Part shown: one piece after another, positions 298-25,882 of the stretch
Layout of the letters: each line of letters begins with the position of its first letter
Position numbering within the stretch: position 1 is the first letter of the stretch
Source: a virus
Length of the DNA stretch: 27,009 nucleotides
IMG/VR virus record: IMGVR_UViG_3300013104_000069
Location: 1-27,009 of that record
Reading direction: 5' to 3' (one strand)
The notes under the pieces: model-generated
What the model was told of the DNA's origin: nothing
Database searches by the model: none
The model's input: only the letters and a program-made list of their open reading frames with translations
Translations under genes and position numbers: made by a program

Positions 298-567
298 TTA
301 GATCGCTGAACTCTTGAAGTCTTCTGCCCTGACCTTGCGATGTACCCCTGTCACGTTCTCGTGGGCGATCTCATCGATAGCCTGGGCGATAGCGTTGTCA
401 CGATCCATCTCTGATAGGTCGCTAGGTACAGCAGCCACACGAGCAAGCAGGCTCAGTGTGTTGTGTCCTAGGGCGAGATCCCTGTGGTACCACTCACTGA
501 AGGAGGTGAATGGATCGATGGGATTGTCTACTGTTGTGAGCATGTACTCATCCTGCACGTCAGCCAT
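298..567 (-). CDS. Conserved small acidic phage protein
   Basis: An 89-aa acidic protein without membrane segments or cysteines. Its N-terminal part contains YMLTTVDNPIDPFT followed by an EWY, and its C-terminal half is helical with an AIDEI segment. I recall small phage proteins with the same LTT-DNP-DPF-EWY pattern, often beside the RNA-polymerase-like gene, but know no function. The ATG is preceded by a strong AAGGAGG, and the TAA of the upstream polymerase-like gene is part of that ribosome site, so the two are probably translationally coupled. It is the last gene of the block before the non-coding end. Coding status is confident; function is unknown. Confidence 0.8.
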   Translation of the reverse strand: MADVQDEYMLTTVDNPIDPFTSFSEWYHRDLALGHNTLSLLARVAAVPSDLSEMDRDNAIAQAIDEIAHENVTGVHRKVRAEDFKSSAI

Positions 568-577
568 TACTACCTCC

Positions 578-3352
578 TTACGTGATGCTTCTCTTGAGAG
601 TGGTTACAGAGACCCCTAGTTGTGAGGCGATCTCTGCCTGTGTGTAGCCCTGATCGGCCATGGCCTTGGCACGGTTGGTCTTGGCACTGGTCATCAGAAG
701 GTCCTGTCTTGGCATAGCCAACTGCTTGACAACGTCAAGATCAGCGTTCTCCAAGATGGACTTCAGCTTGCTCGGACTGATGGCGCCTGCCTGGATGGCG
801 GCCCATTCCTGGGGTGTGATCTGGACGGGGGTCTTCTTGGCCCCGGTCCTTACACGAGCCTCGGCTAGTGCCTGCGACTTGATCTTCTTCAGCTCGTCCA
901 CATCCATGTCGGGCTTGTTACGCTTCTTCTCATCGACGATAGCGTTAGCCAGAATCTGGGCGGACCTCTCACGAGGCGAGTTCAGAAGAGCCGTGTTGAG
1001 CTTGCTGTTCAGGGTCGTGACCTCATGGGCATAGGCCTGCTTCGCAGAGGGGCTGTACGGGATGTCCTTGACGGACAGCGTAGCCTTACGTGCGTCGTTT
1101 GCCATAGCCTTAAGACGGTTGGAGTGATCGGCGTAGATCTGCTCCATCTTGGTGTTCTCTTTCGAGACCAAGGTGTGAGCGTTGTCCGTCAGAGCGAGCT
1201 TGTCGATCTGCTCCGTCTTGTATTTGGTCTGACCCTTGGCGTTGATCCAGTGTTCGCCAGTATCGACGAACCTCTTTTGGCCGGTGTTGGGATCGATCGC
1301 GCCGCCCTGCTTGACGGTTGCGAGCTTGCGCTTGTTGATCGTGGCCTGAGAAGTTGCCCTGGAGATGAGCGTTGAAGCTCCGCCCTGAGGGTTCTCCTGA
1401 TATTTCCGACGAAGAGCAGAGATGCCATTCTTCTGCTCGGAGTACTTGTAGTCGAGAACGTGCTTCTCCGCGTCGATGACGACCATGGAGTGCTTGACCG
1501 CTCGAGCAAGCTCGCTGTCGGTGGCACCCTTGATTGTCATATCCGTGATGAGGTTGGAAATCATCCCCATCTCGAAACCGGTTCCGCGCTTCGACTTGCC
1601 CTTTGCAGGGTAGACGACCTTGTTCTCGGCTGCACTCCAGTGCCCACCATCGATCGTGGGCATTCCGTCGTACTTCGGGAAGGCCCTCTTGGAATCGAAT
1701 CCCTTGAGGTCCTCGAGAGCGGGAGAGCTCTTCACCCGGCCATGGTTGTTCGGGATGACCAGAACCGTGTCGCCATCGAAGTCGGCACCCGACAGTCGCT
1801 CAGCGACCTTGTGGTTGATACCGACAGCATCCTTCGCAAGACCCAGAGTCTTCTTGGCCTCGCGCTGGTTGTTGTTGACGACTAGCTCAGGAATCTCGAA
1901 CGTGCCTCCGTGCGGGAAGCGAACCAGCGCGACACGTGTGCCGTTCTCGAAGTTGGGAGCGTAGATCTCCGTAGGCTTCATCGAAGGGATCGGCATCAGC
2001 ACGTGTGTGGACTGACCGGGCATCATGGCTGCCTTGAGATGGACGGACGCGCTGTCCGTTGACTCGGCGAAGGACTTCAGGAGTTCCCGCTTGATGGTCG
2101 GGTTCGTCAGCTTCATGATCTCGTCGAGCTCCGCCTTGCGGTTCGAGTAAGTCATGTCGAGCTGGCTCTTGGCGAGCTGTGCGGACTGCTTGGACAGGAA
2201 CTGAGAAGGCAGGTTTCGAGACCAGGTGTCCCATGAACCTTCCTCACCAGAACCATCCTTGTGGCCCACGATGTTCATCGCCGAGGTAACGCGTTCCTTA
2301 CCCGTGACCGGGTCGCGTTCGACCATCTGCCGGACGGTTGCACCGAACGGGTTGTCCTTGTCATCCTTCTGCGGCTTCATCGCGTCGAGCTTGTTGTCTG
2401 AGCGCGACTTGTTGGTGTGGAACATGATGTCCACGCCGGGAGGCATGTCGTCCTTGTAGACGGCCATTCCCTTGAGGTAGTGCGTGCCATCGACTGAAAC
2501 GCGAACCTGCGCGTAGCGAGCATTGCCGATAGACACGTCCTTGACGCCCGGACGGATATACATCGTTCCGTCGAGCTTGCTTCCGCCATCCTCATCCCAG
2601 ACCACCGCGACACGCTTCGAAGAAATGTCGAGGGGTTCGTGGATTCCGAGATATGAGCGACCGCCGTCCTCAGAGAACTCCTTGATCTGACGGATCTCGT
2701 GGCGCGCTGCTTTGAGATCACGGTACTCGGTACCGGGAGGGCAGAGCACCTTGAGCGTCGTCTTGTTCGAAGTTCCCAGCTGATCCACCTGAACTGAGTG
2801 AACCACGTAGCCCTGCTCCTTGAGGACGGCCACAGCAGTGGCAAGCTTGTCCTTGGAGATGCCGAGCTGTCGTTCCACTCCGGTGCCGACGTCGATGTAC
2901 TTCTTCTCGTCGACCTGCGTCTTGAGCATGGAGGCGGTTGCCTGAAGGACATCCAGCTTGTCCTGGACGCCCGGCTTGAGGTACGAGCGAACCGTGGCCT
3001 CAGGGATGCCCAGCCTGCGCGAGATCGCCATGTTGGAATATCCGGTGTCCCGAAGGGACTGGACCATGTTGATGTCGTGCTGACGCTGAGCGTTCTTGGC
3101 GATCGACCGAGCAGCGCGAAGCTGCGTGGTGTTCATGTCGAAGGCGGTTGCCACCTCGGACTCGGTCATGCCCGACTTCAGGAGCTCGCTGACGTGGTCG
3201 AGGAACTCCTTGTTGCGCTTCCCGCTCGTGTCGTCTCCACCAGAACCCCACGGGTAGCGGCCAGAGTGTCGAGGGGTGCCGTAGTGCTTCAGGCCGTCAT
3301 CGTCGGGGTGGAGTCCGATCGACCTGAGGTATTCCTCGATCCCGATGATCAA
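578..3352 (-). CDS. Single-chain DPBB RNA polymerase-like protein
   Basis: A 924-aa protein. Residues 523-528 read ADFDGD inside LSGADFDGDTVLVIPNN, the metal-binding signature of double-psi-beta-barrel RNA polymerases (bacterial beta-prime NADFDGD; YonO-like phage and QDE-1-type enzymes). Residues 308-316 (DIMFHTNKS) lie where a second barrel with a catalytic lysine would be expected, but that is tentative. Downstream residues 594-650 (MGMISNLITDM, then ELARAVKHSMVVIDAEKH) resemble the conserved region after the catalytic loop of YonO-type proteins as I recall them. The N-terminus (residues 55-125) has two helix-turn-helix-like segments, and the C-terminus (residues 896-922) a third. It starts at TTG, overlapping the TGA of the upstream exonuclease, with GGGAGA in front. 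The likely role is transcription of phage genes by a single subunit. A terminase or structural role is less likely given DFDGD. Confidence 0.82.
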   Translation of the reverse strand: MIIGIEEYLRSIGLHPDDDGLKHYGTPRHSGRYPWGSGGDDTSGKRNKEFLDHVSELLKSGMTESEVATAFDMNTTQLRAARSIAKNAQRQHDINMVQSLRDTGYSNMAISRRLGIPEATVRSYLKPGVQDKLDVLQATASMLKTQVDEKKYIDVGTGVERQLGISKDKLATAVAVLKEQGYVVHSVQVDQLGTSNKTTLKVLCPPGTEYRDLKAARHEIRQIKEFSEDGGRSYLGIHEPLDISSKRVAVVWDEDGGSKLDGTMYIRPGVKDVSIGNARYAQVRVSVDGTHYLKGMAVYKDDMPPGVDIMFHTNKSRSDNKLDAMKPQKDDKDNPFGATVRQMVERDPVTGKERVTSAMNIVGHKDGSGEEGSWDTWSRNLPSQFLSKQSAQLAKSQLDMTYSNRKAELDEIMKLTNPTIKRELLKSFAESTDSASVHLKAAMMPGQSTHVLMPIPSMKPTEIYAPNFENGTRVALVRFPHGGTFEIPELVVNNNQREAKKTLGLAKDAVGINHKVAERLSGADFDGDTVLVIPNNHGRVKSSPALEDLKGFDSKRAFPKYDGMPTIDGGHWSAAENKVVYPAKGKSKRGTGFEMGMISNLITDMTIKGATDSELARAVKHSMVVIDAEKHVLDYKYSEQKNGISALRRKYQENPQGGASTLISRATSQATINKRKLATVKQGGAIDPNTGQKRFVDTGEHWINAKGQTKYKTEQIDKLALTDNAHTLVSKENTKMEQIYADHSNRLKAMANDARKATLSVKDIPYSPSAKQAYAHEVTTLNSKLNTALLNSPRERSAQILANAIVDEKKRNKPDMDVDELKKIKSQALAEARVRTGAKKTPVQITPQEWAAIQAGAISPSKLKSILENADLDVVKQLAMPRQDLLMTSAKTNRAKAMADQGYTQAEIASQLGVSVTTLKRSIT

Positions 3353-3915
3353 AGGTCTCCCTCTTCTCTCTTCTTCTCGATGTAGGCGGAGAAGGTCTTG
3401 ATCTTCTCCATGACGTACTTGATGTCGGCCGGGATTGCATGCTCCAGCCTGATCTCGTTGTTCTGGTAGATCCGGAGTTCAATCCGGTCCATGTCCAGGA
3501 ACGGGTCGAACCCGTACTCGAGACAGAACAGAGCAGCGTAGACGAGAAGCTGCTTGAACGAGGTGGGGCCAGTGCCCGTCTTCAGGTCGCTGATGCGCAG
3601 AACGCGCTTCCTGAAGGATATGGCATCGACGGTGCCGAAGCAGTCGACCGAGTAGAACAGCACGACCTCGGGTTCCATGCGGTAGCCGATGCAGTCGTTG
3701 ACGTACATGTTGAACGTCTTCTGACTGTTCCTGGCCCACACGCCCAGCTTGATCATCTCCTGCGCGAGAGCGTGGAGACGCGTTCCGAGGGCAGCGGCCT
3801 GCGCGGTGGTGAGCAGACGATCCAGTTGATCCAGATCGTAGTTCAGCCACGAGTACTTACTTGCGGAGAGCCGGGCGTGATGGTTTTGCACCCCATAGTG
3901 CGGCGTAAACTTCAT
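3349..3915 (-). CDS. PD-(D/E)XK exonuclease, RecB/Cas4-like
   Basis: A 188-aa protein with the RecB-nuclease motif order: GTRLH with H48, GTVDA with D97, SDLKTG with D110 and K112, and QLLVY (Q122, Y126), matching the H-D-(D/E)XK-QxxxY pattern. This family degrades or trims DNA ends and commonly serves phage recombination or replication. I chose the ATG at 3915, which has a purine-rich AAGGAAGAG ahead of it; extending upstream to 4014 gives a Ser/Thr/Arg-rich translation that is only the shadow of the upstream nuclease. It overlaps that gene's last 59 bases and its stop overlaps the TTG of the polymerase-like gene. No four-cysteine iron-sulphur cluster, as found in many Cas4 proteins, is evident. 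Confidence 0.78.
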   Translation of the reverse strand: MKFTPHYGVQNHHARLSASKYSWLNYDLDQLDRLLTTAQAAALGTRLHALAQEMIKLGVWARNSQKTFNMYVNDCIGYRMEPEVVLFYSVDCFGTVDAISFRKRVLRISDLKTGTGPTSFKQLLVYAALFCLEYGFDPFLDMDRIELRIYQNNEIRLEHAIPADIKYVMEKIKTFSAYIEKKREEGDL

Positions 3916-4183
3916 GAAGGATCTCTTCCTTGTTCTCAGGGAATATGAAAGCCGCGTAGGACATGTTGCCGAAGAGCTCGACGTAGTAGTCCTGATTGGG
4001 CTGATGGTTCGCATCGGGAGAGGCTTTCACCTCAAGCATGGCCCATCGGCTGTTGTAGAGCACGATGAGGTCGGGGATGCCCTGCACTAGGTTGGCGTCG
4101 TTCTTCATGATGAAACAGCCCGGAAGCAGCTTCTTGAGTTCTTTGATCAACTCTGCCTGAAAAACAGATTCCAACTTGGACAC
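3857..4183 (-). CDS. VRR-NUC-like PD-(D/E)XK nuclease
   Basis: A 108-aa protein with KNDANLVQGIPDLIVL (D38) and AMLEVKAS (E51, K53), then NHQPNQDYYV. This D-(10-15)-ExK-Q spacing is typical of small VRR-NUC / resolvase-like nucleases that cut branched or flapped DNA. An in-frame ATG at 4237 exists, but the DNA between 4184 and 4237 is a TATAAT promoter region, and GTG at 4183 has a strong AGGAGG, so I chose the GTG. It heads a nuclease-nuclease-polymerase string. The exact subfamily is inferred. Confidence 0.72.
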   Translation of the reverse strand: MSKLESVFQAELIKELKKLLPGCFIMKNDANLVQGIPDLIVLYNSRWAMLEVKASPDANHQPNQDYYVELFGNMSYAAFIFPENKEEILHEVYAALWGAKPSRPALRK

Positions 4184-4225
4184 GGCACCTCCTAACGAGA
4201 CAAAAAGAAAGGGCTTGATCTCTTC

Positions 4226-4248
4226 ATTATAGGCCATGATTACGATGC
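4226..4248 (-). promoter_or_regulatory. TATAAT promoter, copy 1
   Basis: On the minus strand ATGGCCTATAATGA occurs here, with TATAAT at 4231-4226. The same ATGGCC/ACGGCC-TATAATGA core occurs at 13921 and 25735. It lies about 45 bases upstream of the GTG start at 4183, suitable for a host-sigma promoter with a 35-40 base leader. A consensus -35 is not visible, although a half-site TAATACCC (4253-4260) sits just upstream. Confidence 0.6.
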
Positions 4249-4265
4249 GACATAATACCCTTTTT

Positions 4266-4766
4266 CTATTCGACGAGGCGGAACTGCTGGTAGGTAGGCC
4301 AGACGAACGTTCGCTTGTGGGCAGCCACCAGAATCTCGCTCAGGACTAGCCCGTGCTTGACTGCTGCCTCTTGGATCGTGTCGTAGATGTCGCCCGTCTT
4401 CATGTCAACGATCTTGGTGTTGCTCTCCTTCCAGATGCGGGACTCGAACTGTAGGTGGTAGCGGATGGCGAAGTAGCGGGGGCGCCACTGAAGGTTGCTC
4501 GCGGCGCAGTTCGTCTTGTCGCCGTCGAGGTGGATGAGGGATATGAAGTCGTCACGGTGTGGCTCGTCGAGGAAGGCCTCGGCCACGATGTGGTTGACCT
4601 GTCTGGTCTTGGTCTTGCCGCCGTCAACGGGGAGGTTGACCTTGAGGTGGCCCTGCTGGTTCTTGCTGGGGGTGAGGGTGCGGTCGTACTTGACGTTGCG
4701 GATCTCTCCGGCGTCGCTGACCTCGTAGTTGGGGGATCGGGCGATCACTCGCCATTCGGCAGTCAT
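4266..4766 (-). CDS. NUMOD4-HNH homing-type endonuclease
   Basis: A 166-aa protein. Residues 4-30 (EWRVIARSPNYEVSDAGEIR) are a NUMOD4 DNA-binding motif. Residues 57-94 carry the HNH core: VNHIVAEAF (H59), LIHLDGDKTN (H79, N86) and SNLQW (N91). Residues 118-150 look like a NUMOD1-type C-terminal helix-turn-helix. Such proteins are free-standing homing endonucleases that cut specific DNA and spread with it. The open frame extends to 4952, but the extra residues translate the A/T-rich control region, so I take the ATG at 4766. Its ribosome site is weak. It sits between the interrupted helicase and the nucleases, which fits a selfish insertion. Confidence 0.85.
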   Translation of the reverse strand: MTAEWRVIARSPNYEVSDAGEIRNVKYDRTLTPSKNQQGHLKVNLPVDGGKTKTRQVNHIVAEAFLDEPHRDDFISLIHLDGDKTNCAASNLQWRPRYFAIRYHLQFESRIWKESNTKIVDMKTGDIYDTIQEAAVKHGLVLSEILVAAHKRTFVWPTYQQFRLVE

Positions 4767-4842
4767 CAGGGAGTCATGGGTCCTTCCGGAGGTCGATCTG
4801 TCAAATGTCAAAAATTTTCGCAACAAACTTTTTTCTTGCTTA

Positions 4843-4852
4843 GGTACTACCC
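4843..4852. promoter_or_regulatory. Palindromic operator-like site 1
   Basis: GGTACTACCC, one base short of the GGGTANTACCC consensus shared with 4940 and 5007. Symmetric, so it probably binds a dimer. A half-site (GGGTATTA) follows 12 bases away at 4865-4872. Confidence 0.55.
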
Positions 4853-4939
4853 TATTATTATTTTGGGTATTAGCGCGAATATATAAAAGAGTTTTACTAG
4901 AGATTTTTGACAAAATGACAGATTTTCGAGGCGAAACGG

Positions 4940-4950
4940 GGGTAATACCC
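4940..4950. promoter_or_regulatory. Palindromic operator-like site 2
   Basis: GGGTAATACCC, a perfect odd-centred palindrome (GGGTA-A-TACCC), the best member of the set. It lies mid-way in the control region. Confidence 0.6.
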
Positions 4951-5006
4951 AAGATTTGGGCCGTTTTTGGGCCTTCAGGACGCCGCCGACCGATGACGGG
5001 CCTGAA

Positions 5007-5033
5007 GGTATTACCCTGTTTTTTTGGGTATTA
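5007..5033. promoter_or_regulatory. Palindromic operator-like site 3 plus half-site
   Basis: GGTATTACCC (5007-5016) followed after a T-rich 9-base spacer by GGGTATTA (5026-5033). Together they can also form a small hairpin in RNA, so a terminator for the helicase transcript is an alternative reading. Confidence 0.5.
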
Positions 5034-5107
5034 AGTCGACGGCCTGAGCCGACCGAAATCGGCCGTTCCCAGATGTACCGTAGTTCAATACCCTTTTTTG
5101 GTCAGAT

Positions 5108-6721
5108 TTAGGCGGCTGTCTCCAGCGCCCGCATGCTGTACCGGTTCTCGTTGAAGTTCTTCTTCTGCCCCAGTGACTTCCGAACTGCCTGATCGATCCA
5201 GGAGTTCGACTGGAGAACGTAGTAGTGAAGCTCGGTGAACGGGGTGTTCAACCGATCGATGCGACCGAATGCCTGGTGCCACGCCTTGTAGGAGTAGGTG
5301 AGGCTCCAGAAGACCATCGCATCTGTGGTGACGCAGTTCCAACCCTCAGACCCAGCGGTGTACTGAACCAGGTAGACCCAGCGGTCAGTCTCCGGAACTT
5401 CCTGGTGCTTGTGCCCGTTCCACTCGGCGAGGGTGAACCGGGTTGTCTCTGGGGCTGGGTCCGACCTGCTCGAGCTGCTGTCCGGAACACACGACCTTCC
5501 AGATTCGTCCATCGAAGAACTTGTCCTCGACGCATGTGCCACAGCTGAGGCAGTTGTACACGATGTAGCCTCCGCTCCCTTCTGCCGGCTCGAGGACCCG
5601 GTGGAGGCAGGTGGCGGGGTTGGCCCCGTCTTCTCGGCTCCAGATGAGCTCGGCCATTCAGTCGTCCTCTCCGTCTCTGATGTGGACTCGTCCGATGCTG
5701 AAGTCGGCTGTGCGCGGTCGAAGCACGCTACCGTCGACGCCTGGGATTCGCTCTCGTAGGAAAGCGACGTGGTTGAAGTCGATCTCGTCCCCGACCTCTT
5801 CTGCGTCAACGATGTCGTCGAACACGTTGTGAGTGATTCGCTGCTTGACAAGCTCGGTGTCGTAGTCGTCGAGGAAGCCAAGGTCCTCAACATCTCCAGC
5901 TCGTAGTCGAAGTTGTAGAACACAATCAGCCGGGGGTGCCTCGTCATGAGCGATCGCACAAACTCCAATCGACTCGGATCCGAGTTCACAACCTTCCGGG
6001 CGACAGTGAACAACTCCGCGATGTCCCTCAGTGGTTTCTCTTCGAATACGTTCCATCGGCCCTTGAAGACCCTTTCTAGCGCTTCTGAGTCATGCTCTAG
6101 GCAGACTTCGCTGACAATTCGTCGGGTATGTCTTTCGTACGGCATTTCGACAAGGAGTTGTTCCTTGTATCGCACCAGCTTGCCTTCTCCCATGAAACGA
6201 TCAACCTTGGGGTACTTGGCGAATCGATTGAAGACTGCATGTTCCCGAAGGAACGCTGTGCGATTCTTGTAGAACCCGTTAGCAACAAATAGAGGGATGT
6301 AGTCAAGCCACCCATCGCCAGGCGTAGCGCTGAGCATGATCCACCGATTGCGCTTTGCGATCTTGATAAGCGCATCAGCCCAGGCCCCAGATCCAACAGC
6401 TCGTTGCTCGTCGAAGATGAAGAAGGCGTCTGTGACATCGGTGTATCTTCCTATGTTGTTCCAGGAGTCGACCGTCAGTACACCTGCGATCGTCGCGTCG
6501 GGGTTCTTACTGATTGCGAAAGCCGCGAATTCTTTCTCCCAGTCGAGAGAATTTCGCTTCTTGGCTGTGGTGATGATGTAGATGTCTTTCGGGGTCTCGT
6601 TCCGCACGTAATATGCGGCTGCCGTGATTGACTTCCCCGTACCTACATCACCCCACAACACTTTCCCGTTACCAAGCTTGGAGACAGCATCCTCTTGGTG
6701 GGGATGGAGGGTTGGACCCAC
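5108..6721 (-). CDS. SNF2-type helicase, interrupted
   Basis: An SF2/SNF2-like DNA-dependent ATPase. The N-terminal half carries Walker A (GDVGTGKS, residues 24-31), FIFDEQ (motif II, residues 102-107), MLSATPG (motif III) and ends near FYNFDYELEMLRTL (residue 281). The C-terminal half resumes at AEWNGHKH (about 5428) with YTAGSEGW (motif V) and QAFGRIDR (motif VI). Between them the frame stays open but reads as a Ser/Thr-rich string of about 150 residues with poor codon bias, while another frame there has good codon bias. The gene therefore looks split by about 430 bp of foreign coding DNA. Start is GTG directly after the upstream TAA. A functional helicase would need removal or bypass of the insert, or tolerance of it. 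Confidence 0.75.
   Translation of the reverse strand: MGPTLHPHQEDAVSKLGNGKVLWGDVGTGKSITAAAYYVRNETPKDIYIITTAKKRNSLDWEKEFAAFAISKNPDATIAGVLTVDSWNNIGRYTDVTDAFFIFDEQRAVGSGAWADALIKIAKRNRWIMLSATPGDGWLDYIPLFVANGFYKNRTAFLREHAVFNRFAKYPKVDRFMGEGKLVRYKEQLLVEMPYERHTRRIVSEVCLEHDSEALERVFKGRWNVFEEKPLRDIAELFTVARKVVNSDPSRLEFVRSLMTRHPRLIVFYNFDYELEMLRTLASSTTTTPSLSSSESLTTCSTTSLTQKRSGTRSTSTTSLSYESESQASTVACFDRAQPTSASDESTSETERTTEWPSSSGAEKTGPTPPPASTGSSSRQKGAEATSCTTASAVAHASRTSSSMDESGRSCVPDSSSSRSDPAPETTRFTLAEWNGHKHQEVPETDRWVYLVQYTAGSEGWNCVTTDAMVFWSLTYSYKAWHQAFGRIDRLNTPFTELHYYVLQSNSWIDQAVRKSLGQKKNFNENRYSMRALETAA
5385..5657 (-). CDS. Small Cys-rich protein inside the helicase gene
   Basis: Up to 90 aa, in a frame offset from the helicase. 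It starts with MAELIWSREDG after a good GGAGAGG site, directly following the TGA of the preceding reading-frame fragment. A Cys/His set (CLHRV, then YNCLSCGTC and VVCSG) resembles a small zinc-binding fold. GC-rich third positions support translation through about residue 70. The last 25 or so residues overlap the resumed helicase frame and look like shadow, so the original C-terminus may have been replaced at the insertion junction. Function unknown; not an obvious HNH or GIY-YIG nuclease. Confidence 0.55.
   Translation of the reverse strand: MAELIWSREDGANPATCLHRVLEPAEGSGGYIVYNCLSCGTCVEDKFFDGRIWKVVCSGQQLEQVGPSPRDNPVHPRRVERAQAPGSSGD
5445..5880 (-). other. Insertion splitting the helicase
   Basis: Approximate limits of the segment where helicase sequence is lost and another frame has the genome's codon bias. 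It carries the 3-prime part of one reading frame (to a TGA at 5658) and the start of a second (5657). No terminal inverted repeats, direct repeats or transposase are visible. It could be a recombinational insertion, a small intron, or a rearranged gene order. Boundaries are estimated from where each helicase half stops looking like its family, so an error of 15-30 bp is likely. Confidence 0.5.
5658..5880 (-). pseudogene. 5-prime-truncated reading frame in the insertion
   Basis: A frame one base back from the helicase encodes about 73 residues with good codon bias, from DLGFLDDYDTELVKQRI to HIRDGEDD and a TGA. It has no suitable start at its 5-prime end: the upstream part of the same frame is only the shadow of the helicase, and the first internal GTG is 20 or so codons in. 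So it looks like the tail of a gene cut by the insertion junction, or a -1 frameshift product of the helicase N-terminal half. No slippery heptamer was seen. Acidic, no recognised family. Confidence 0.45.
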
Positions 6722-7051
6722 TTACACGTCGTCCGGCTTCGGCTCGATGGCGATGCAGGGAGCGCTGGGGAACTCCGTGATCGAATGCCATGAGGGCTTG
6801 CCGTGCGTGCGACAGATGTAGGTCCACCCCGTGACCTCGCTCCAGTGGGAGTCGTAGTCGCAGGACTCCCTTGCCGGCTTGCGCTTGCGTGGGTAGACCA
6901 GCGGGTGGTTGACCAGGATCATGACGTCCCGCCCGTGAGCCTGAGCTGTTGCCAGCTCCTGCTCGAGGACACGACGCGGCCGACCTGTGAGCTCCGCGAG
7001 TTCGTCGAGGTTCCGCTCGGTCAGCTTGCGAATATCGGGCTTCTCGTCCAT
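6722..7051 (-). CDS. Small protein with C-terminal Cys/His cluster
   Basis: A 109-aa protein. The first 45 residues form a helical segment with KLTERNLDELAELTGRPRR, resembling a helix-turn-helix. The C-terminal half has C64, H69, C80 and H83 (SCDYDSH, YICRTHG), a possible zinc site. The open frame continues to a GTG at 7081, but GAGGAG nine bases before the ATG at 7051, overlapping the upstream TGA, favours the ATG. Its TAA abuts the GTG of the helicase, so the two are probably co-translated. Family unknown. Confidence 0.72.
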   Translation of the reverse strand: MDEKPDIRKLTERNLDELAELTGRPRRVLEQELATAQAHGRDVMILVNHPLVYPRKRKPARESCDYDSHWSEVTGWTYICRTHGKPSWHSITEFPSAPCIAIEPKPDDV

Positions 7052-7064
7052 GAGACGGTGCTCC

Positions 7065-7478
7065 TCAGATGTTGTTGGCACGGTAGTACTCTCCGTCTTC
7101 CCAGTAGAAACCGTTGCGCTCTCGAATCGCCTTGATGAGACCCTTGAGCACGCCCGGAGCGTGAGCCTTCCAGATGAGCGGGTGAGCGTAGTCGCCGGTC
7201 ACCTCGAAGTCGGCGGCCTTGACAGTCTTGTAGTCGTCCTTGGTGTTGCCGATCGGGAGAGGCTCGTTCACGTACCAGTGCACGATGGATCCGACGTACT
7301 CGACCCTGCGAGCCCGCTTCGGGCCCTTGTTGCGCTGACGGTAGATCGACTTCAGAACGAAATCGACCCTCCGCACGTCGCTGAGCACGTTGGAGAACCG
7401 GACGTTCTGACTGAACTCATCGTCCAGCTGGTAGAAGTGATGCTTGGGGCCGAACAGGAGGTCGGGGAGTGACTTCAT
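7065..7478 (-). CDS. Hypothetical phage protein, 137 aa
   Basis: Basic protein starting MKSLPDLLFGPKHHFYQLDD, with an Arg/Lys-rich middle (RQRNKGPKRARRVEYVG) and a C-terminus rich in aromatic residues (NGFYWEDGEYYRA). No membrane helix or cysteines. Codon bias is good and the ATG sits just after the upstream gene. The basic centre could contact nucleic acid, but there is no recognised domain. Confidence 0.7.
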   Translation of the reverse strand: MKSLPDLLFGPKHHFYQLDDEFSQNVRFSNVLSDVRRVDFVLKSIYRQRNKGPKRARRVEYVGSIVHWYVNEPLPIGNTKDDYKTVKAADFEVTGDYAHPLIWKAHAPGVLKGLIKAIRERNGFYWEDGEYYRANNI

Positions 7479-7491
7479 TATGGGGGAGTCC

Positions 7492-7779
7492 TTACTTCGC
7501 TGGGGCGATGGTGATGTCGTTGGCGGAGAAATCGAGTTCGACCGTGGTGCCGTCGTAGTCGCAGTTCATAGCGATCCCGCCCGAGCACCAGACACGGGGG
7601 ATATCGATCTGAAGCATGAGCCGGCCTCGGCTGTCCATGATCTCCTGCAACAGCTCCAACGGGAACTTGTTGATGTCGACAGTGATCGAGCCGGTGACGT
7701 AGGGCTTCTCGTAGTTGCGGATGTAGCCCTGTTCGCCCGGGACCCGCATGGGTGGTCGGAAGGTGATCTCGTCACTCAT
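7492..7779 (-). CDS. Hypothetical protein, 95 aa, beta-rich
   Basis: Starts MSDEITFRPPMRVPG, with alternating hydrophobic stretches (GSITVDINKFPLELL, RLMLQIDIPRVW) suggesting a small beta-sheet protein. Its ATG overlaps the TGA of the lipoprotein gene (ATGA), so the two are translationally coupled. The open frame extends far upstream, but that part is lipoprotein shadow. Function unknown. Confidence 0.7.
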   Translation of the reverse strand: MSDEITFRPPMRVPGEQGYIRNYEKPYVTGSITVDINKFPLELLQEIMDSRGRLMLQIDIPRVWCSGGIAMNCDYDGTTVELDFSANDITIAPAK

Positions 7780-13909: not shown

Positions 13910-13946
13910 GGTGGGGTCTCATTATAGGCCATGAATTTCTTGCGAG
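13910..13946 (-). promoter_or_regulatory. TATAAT promoter, copy 2
   Basis: Minus strand GGCCTATAATGAGACCCCAC with TATAAT at 13926-13921, preceded by a conserved ACTCGCA. A 21-bp block (13910-13930) is repeated exactly at 25724-25744, and the A/T-rich upstream part is nearly the same, including the 21-base distance from ACTCGCA to TATAAT. About 30 bases separate it from the start at 13892. Typical of a host-sigma -10 with an unusual upstream element. Confidence 0.65.
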
Positions 13947-25701: not shown

Positions 25702-25882
25702 GGTATTTCTCCTTTTGACTAACGGTGGGGTCTCATTATAGGCCGTGTAATTTCTGCGAGTCTGGGCGCCTTTTTGCTGTGCTGGTACGCAGCCGTCGGC
25801 GGTCTTTTATAAGCTAGCGTCCGGTGAAGGGTGAGACCCTACAAGAGGCCCTCGCTGCTGCCCGTTGACTCACGGTGAAACG
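25702..25882 (-). other. Intergenic region, promoter and possible terminator
   Basis: 181 bp. Reading with the minus strand, a small AGGGT/ACCCT stem (around 25829-25841) follows the tail-chaperone-like gene, then TTATAAAAG (25805-25813), an A-run, and finally the TATAAT promoter for the downstream gene. The stem is short and not followed by a U-run. Otherwise I see nothing here. Confidence 0.45.
25724..25760 (-). promoter_or_regulatory. TATAAT promoter, copy 3
   Basis: Minus strand GGCCTATAATGAGACCCCAC with TATAAT at 25740-25735 and upstream ACTCGCA. A 21-bp block is identical to 13910-13930. About 33 bases from the GTG at 25701. Strong candidate for host-sigma transcription. Confidence 0.65.

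Follow-up and report, generated by a model that had tools for sequence, protein, structure and literature searches.

A predicted single-chain RNA polymerase with a candidate early promoter and a putative virion tag in phages of Actinobacteria and Firmicutes

The polymerase gene, its operon and its family

We analyzed the complete 27,009-base virus record IMGVR_UViG_3300013104_000069, which is referred to as the window throughout. On its minus strand, an open reading frame at 578–3352 encodes a 924-amino-acid product from a TTG start that overlaps the stop codon of an exonuclease gene. The first-pass annotation had listed this reading frame without its strand, and the LSGADFDGDTVLVIPNN stretch it had pointed out is present in the product, with D524, D526 and D528 where they had been placed (DFDGD, residues 524–528). 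The gene belongs to an operon on the minus strand that begins with an endonuclease gene (3857–4183; phrog_93) in the VRR-Nuc/endonuclease position of relatives and continues with a gene for a Cas4-like PD-(D/E)XK exonuclease (3349–3915, with 3915 the likely true start) and the polymerase gene. A small conserved open reading frame (298–567, minus strand; phrog_4303) lies 3′ of the polymerase gene and has the same position in relatives. An identical gene order near the right genome end is annotated in Streptomyces, Arthrobacter, Gordonia, Curtobacterium and Microbacterium phages, and related orders surround the polymerase homologue in Rhodococcus and Lactococcus phages.

The helicase reading frame at 5108–6721 (minus strand) has a middle third that is not protein-like between helicase-like ends, pointing to an insertion or frameshifts, and several GGGTATTACC/GGGTAATACC elements occur at 4240–5120, around the HNH endonuclease gene.

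The profile of PHROG 4291, labelled ‘RNA-dependent RNA polymerase’, matches residues 17–923 of the protein (E = 0, 1286 bits). Homologues over at least 80% of the length were found in 249 of 50,697 phage records, none of them above 60% identity; they are mostly annotated as ‘HTH protein’, and also as ‘RNA-dependent RNA polymerase’ or ‘DNA-binding protein’. The proteins of Lactococcus phage 1706, ReqiPoco6, Rimavirus and Mudcatvirus (all PHROG 4291) are full-length homologues in the same or a related gene order. In IMG/VR, at least 516 relatives were confirmed among the pattern matches, and relatives also occur in 152 bacterial genomes, among the matches listed mostly Clostridia, including the cultured isolates [Ruminococcus] torques ATCC 27756 and Hungatella hathewayi. 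A chance reading frame is excluded by the PHROG 4291 match, the 249 homologue records and the three aspartates, invariant down to 41% identity. Since PHROG 4291 is catalogued already, the polymerase family is not new and its meaning is the question; what the present analysis adds is a fold match that takes in both barrels, together with the tag and the promoter-like motif described below.

Fold, catalytic residues and terminal DNA-binding segments

An AlphaFold2 model of the window protein was built on an alignment of 63 sequences (41–78% identity to it) and reached a pLDDT of 80.5 and a pTM of 0.68. In a fold search of the PDB, all 21 matches with E ≤ 1e-3 were two-barrel polymerases (QDE-1, P23-45/P74-26 gp64/gp62 and RDR2). 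A second structural alignment gave Z 16.7 for RDR2 (358 residues, 3.9 Å), Z 16.3 for QDE-1 (387 residues, 4.4 Å) and Z 13.7 for the P23-45-type phage gp64 (357 residues). The polymerase match extends over model residues of about 239–765; residues 241–765 align with QDE-1 683–1198, and both barrels are therefore covered, not the DFDGD barrel alone. For cellular Rpb1-type (Pol II) chains, the match is limited to the Asp-side part (439–655). Whole-chain TM-scores are low, at about 0.3, because the relative placement of the domains differs or is poorly predicted. The comparison of a predicted structure with known polymerases, which the first-pass annotation had proposed, thus bears out the single-chain two-barrel architecture in silico, including the second barrel that had been called doubtful. 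Searches of PDB sequences with the single sequence or the 63-row profile returned HTH or unrelated matches alone, so that the relation to polymerases is visible by fold alone.

The Lys-side barrel region (2273–2638, minus strand; residues about 239–360, a range taken from the structural alignment) holds K294, which is invariant in the 63 sequences, and K315, which is nearly so, the lysine being assigned by conservation alone. In the Asp-side barrel region (1733–2038, minus strand; residues about 439–540), D524, D526 and D528 (codons at 1769–1783) are invariant, as is R478-x-P480-H481 upstream of the triad, which resembles the Rpb1 stretch NRQPTLHK. The window protein is almost certainly a two-barrel RNA polymerase, with catalysis predicted. 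The prevailing label ‘HTH protein’ would also suit a regulator that binds DNA and whose polymerase core is dead, but this is improbable, as all catalytic residues are invariant across the 63 sequences, which would be unexpected for a dead core.

The protein had initially been described as YonO-type. Like YonO of SPbeta, it is a single-chain polymerase with an Asp triad, and this part of the description stands, whereas kinship with YonO does not: YonO belongs to PHROG 8308 and has the triad DNDGD, while the window protein belongs to PHROG 4291 and has DFDGD. PHROG 8308 matches the window protein weakly and around the DFDGD barrel only (residues 457–535, E = 2e-4), and a profile comparison of YonO with the 63-sequence alignment gave a probability of 2.4 and no alignment over the barrels. 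YonO was also absent among the listed PDB fold matches, although the PDB copy searched may lack its structure. Judged by these profiles, the window protein works like YonO at most and is not a member of its family.

The best fold matches over both barrels, QDE-1 and the plant enzyme RDR2 (13–14% identity over the aligned part), are eukaryotic RNA-silencing enzymes, unlike the phage protein. They are what favors an RNA-dependent RNA polymerase that copies RNA during infection, the function named by PHROG and RefSeq. We consider this reading very improbable: QDE-1 also uses DNA templates (PDB titles), P23-45 gp64, with a similar match quality, is a non-virion, DNA-dependent phage polymerase (PMC10770324), and both the DNA-binding HTH units of the window protein and the promoter-like DNA motif associated with it suggest that the template is DNA.

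The HTH segments that had been noticed near both chain ends are supported by Pfam matches at about 103–135 and 891–921, with weaker ones near 60–80 and 159–185. In the models, HTH units lie at 64–80 and 107–125, a winged HTH at about 159–204 and a C-terminal HTH at 889–923. We therefore delimit an N-terminal DNA-binding region of tandem HTH and winged HTH (2813–3223, minus strand; residues 44–180) and a C-terminal HTH (584–688, minus strand; residues 889–923), the latter seen in both Pfam and the model. When the N-terminal domain was used by itself as a fold query, no match reached E ≤ 1e-3; the two HTH units of this domain show a weak similarity to the CRISPR repeat-binding protein Cbp1.

An N-terminal tag and the question of virion packaging

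Ahead of the first HTH, residues 21–38 form a short tag, LKHYGTPRHSGRYPWGSG (3239–3292, minus strand), in a stretch predicted to be disordered (pLDDT < 50 at residues 13–43). Among the polymerases it is almost invariant as L-x-HYG-x-x-R-H/R-SGRYPWGSG, with H23, G25, S30, G31, R32, Y33, P34, G36 and S37 invariant in the 63 sequences. The same tag occurs outside the polymerase. On one viral contig (L254) it is carried by small proteins downstream of the terminase, two of which have GNAT acetyltransferase domains, and on another (L285) by a 368-amino-acid protein whose gene sits precisely between those for terminase and portal. Three of the tagged proteins are matched by the N-terminal part of PHROG 4291, with E-values of 1e-8 to 4e-5. 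A further candidate, PHYGVQNHHARLSASKYSWLN at the start of the exonuclease, was rejected because the stretch resembles what is presumably the common N-terminal start of this Cas4-like exonuclease type.

A similar tag in the same phages, HYGVKGMKWGVR, corresponds to Pfam DUF7211 (PF23847). Streptomyces phage GirlPower has seven DUF7211 copies, most of them in the genes that separate terminase from portal. One GirlPower protein (6528–7520) combines a DUF7211 tag, a GNAT acetyltransferase and a second DUF7211 tag, and the GNAT domains on tagged proteins of GirlPower and contig L254 are possible virion-delivered modifiers of host proteins. Phage records with the DUF7211 tag and those with the polymerase agree in Arthrobacter (95/95), Gordonia (55/55), Streptomyces (54/54) and Curtobacterium (7/7), and 14 of 20 contigs picked by the DUF7211 tag encode the polymerase, at least in part. 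Of 44 prophage loci whose flanks are complete, 40 show DUF7211-like tags on the polymerase strand in the 6 kb that follow (75 tags in all), with none upstream and none on the opposite strand.

Both tags are short and contain HYG..WG, but they differ in spacing and middle residues, and the Pfam DUF7211 model found no match in four polymerase N-termini. A profile comparison of the two scored 29.8, whereas none of 60 column-shuffled controls exceeded 14.8; the match rests on 11 columns around L-x-HYG and is suggestive only, because the segments compared were picked by the L-x-HYG pattern.

Records of Lactococcus phage 1706 bear on the location of these proteins. In EU081845, the polymerase homologue (orf75) and orf7, which has two DUF7211 tags, are both labelled ‘structural protein’; RefSeq later renamed orf75 ‘RNA-dependent RNA polymerase’, and the ‘structural protein’ label of the ReqiPoco6 homologue is a repetition by similarity. 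That such labels in 1706 reach beyond the structural block, to orf62 and orf71, suggests an origin in virion proteomics, which we assume to be mass spectrometry. Garneau et al. 2008 is reportedly the source of these data.

Virion delivery of a single-chain two-barrel polymerase has precedent in crAss-like phages (6vr4 title) and in P23-45 (PMC10770324). Like the window protein, gp66 of the crAss-like phage phi14:2 (PDB 6vr4) is a single-chain two-barrel phage polymerase. It is virion-packaged according to the structure title; the Foldseek match between them is weak (E = 1.4e-3), and the solved chain of gp66 has 2,166 residues, compared with 924 residues, HTH ends and a short tag in the window protein. 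P23-45 gp96, the virion polymerase that serves the pre-early genes, is fused to the tape measure (PMC10770324), a fusion in place of which the window protein has its HTH ends and tag. Taken together, we lean towards the polymerase being carried in the virion. A broader proposal is more tentative, and we give it slightly less than even odds: short HYG..WG tags may form a general cargo system that loads unrelated proteins (RNA polymerase, GNAT and proteins of unknown function) into the head for entry into the cell along with the DNA, after which the polymerase would use its own promoter to launch the infection programme, in Firmicutes as well as in Actinobacteria.

A promoter-like motif and its probable reader

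Motif finding in the gaps between the small early genes of GirlPower yielded TTACANGNCCTATARTGAGACC. Ten exact copies, all on the coding strand, lie in the early region of this phage (27.1–34.0 kb; 0 expected from shuffles), and no further site was found in GirlPower within five mismatches and none near late genes. Eight of the ten lie 11–29 nt before an annotated start. The other two overlap the starts annotated for genes 33 and 45; both annotations are probably wrong, and in each case an ATG some 30 nt further on is the likelier start. Extended to TCGCA-N6-ACA-N5-TATARTGAG (blocks TCGCA, ACA and TATAATGAG), the motif is located ahead of early genes and of the polymerase operon.

The window contains three sites, all on the coding strand (0.03 expected), each 25–39 nt 5′ of a start codon with a ribosome-binding site. 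One (4223–4250, minus strand; two mismatches) precedes the GTG of the endonuclease-exonuclease-polymerase operon by 39 nt, and several relatives likewise have a site before this operon; the others lie about 25 nt before an ATG (13918–13945, minus strand; one mismatch) and about 30 nt before a GTG (25732–25759, minus strand; exact). Eleven of 12 relatives have sites with at most three mismatches, 72 in all and on the coding strand, compared with one for a reversed control pattern. The exception is a Faecalibacterium phage, FP_oengus, with no site within three mismatches and a divergent look-alike only; here, GACGCGAAAAATNCA...TTTATGGA stands before genes at 2488, 2635 and 8244, likely a divergent form of the promoter.

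A BLAST search with one site hit 55/55 Gordonia and 54/54 Streptomyces polymerase phages, at several places in most listed records, while phages of other groups (Escherichia, Vibrio, Campylobacter) gave short single matches. Conversely, 22 of 27 viral contigs of at least 30 kb that were picked by the motif alone encode the polymerase. Among the contigs bearing tag or motif but having no polymerase match, 8 of 11 have the same replication polymerase family, often near the contig end. Shared ancestry may therefore link tag, promoter and polymerase, and their co-occurrence alone is no proof of a functional link; what weighs more is that the motif is placed ahead of genes and that the tag is conserved in an otherwise disordered stretch.

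Other recurrent elements were also seen. The element CCCC-N4-GGGGTTTGGGTTT, found first in GirlPower, was discarded as resembling a terminator hairpin: it has a stem and follows stop codons, the promoter-like motif lying after it. Nine such hairpins stand directly 3′ of early-gene stop codons at 27.9–34.2 kb; what comes next is either the promoter-like motif or CATATT with a ribosome-binding site. In the window, AACCCATATTC occurs four times on the minus strand (23384, 16661, 15532 and 14178) and never on the plus strand; three copies lie directly before a start codon, possibly as a leader or processing element. In ReqiPoco6, seven copies of CAAAATGGGAG (mostly GTCAAAATGGGAGT) are spread over the first 40 kb of the plus strand, in coding and intergenic sequence (9962, 13734, 18969, 21018, 27961, 31878 and 36064).

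Its TATAAT-like block could make the motif a promoter of a host sigma factor, possibly assisted by a phage activator. The −10 consensus of the host is likewise TATAAT, the circularised map shows the polymerase gene closely followed by the late block, and YonO transcribes the late genes of SPbeta (PMC5467207). We nevertheless regard a host promoter as unlikely, though by no means negligible. Across 232 distinct sites, the sequence 5′ of TCGCA shows no conservation, so there is no −35 box, and an extended −10 is missing as well; conservation instead extends through GAGACCCC, with TCGCA, ACA and a GAGACC downstream of the −10 block kept at fixed spacing. The same layout, with letters of their own (TTTTACATAYACTATAGTAGAAAG, TTTTACATACCCTATAATGAAAG), is found in the low-GC Lactococcus phages 1706 and P078 as in Streptomyces phages. 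The motif is, moreover, nearly confined to polymerase phages, GirlPower has no site near its late genes, and the 1706 homologue was deposited as structural. With a dead-core regulator, the motif would be its operator, or else a sequence tied to gene starts of the kind known from some actinobacteriophages, but the sites are one-sided and mostly 11–39 nt before start codons.

Within a genome the sites are more alike than between genomes (2.8 versus 4.8 differences; 0/500 shuffles), as expected if each polymerase evolves with its promoters, although duplication of sites alone would also suffice. The terminal HTH segments, suggested at the outset as promoter readers, remain plausible candidates for that role, and the conserved motif now provides a putative target. 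We consider it likely that the window polymerase acts on this motif. A literature search retrieved no paper naming the tag, the promoter-like motif or DUF7211.

Overall, we favor, at a probability of roughly 55%, a virion-carried, single-chain, DNA-dependent RNA polymerase with its own early promoter, its activity and packaging being inferred. The phage’s own polymerase would hold both double-psi barrels in one chain, and the disordered N-terminal tag (HYG..HSGRYPWGSG) would target it into the procapsid alongside other tagged proteins. It would then enter the next cell with the DNA, where the flanking HTH domains may recognise TCGCA-N6-ACA-N5-TATARTGAG without a sigma factor. Transcription, probably starting in or just after GAG, would cover the early genes and the polymerase’s own operon.

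The gene is carried by at least 250 sequenced phages, many of which belong to Streptomyces, Gordonia and Arthrobacter teaching collections, and by prophages of common gut Clostridia. If the proposed mechanism is true, these phages would possess a transcription system of their own that uses a defined promoter, and their early transcription units and gene starts would become predictable. Cultured phages would then also supply a polymerase and promoter that form an orthogonal pair, and DUF7211, a domain of unknown function, would gain a candidate meaning.
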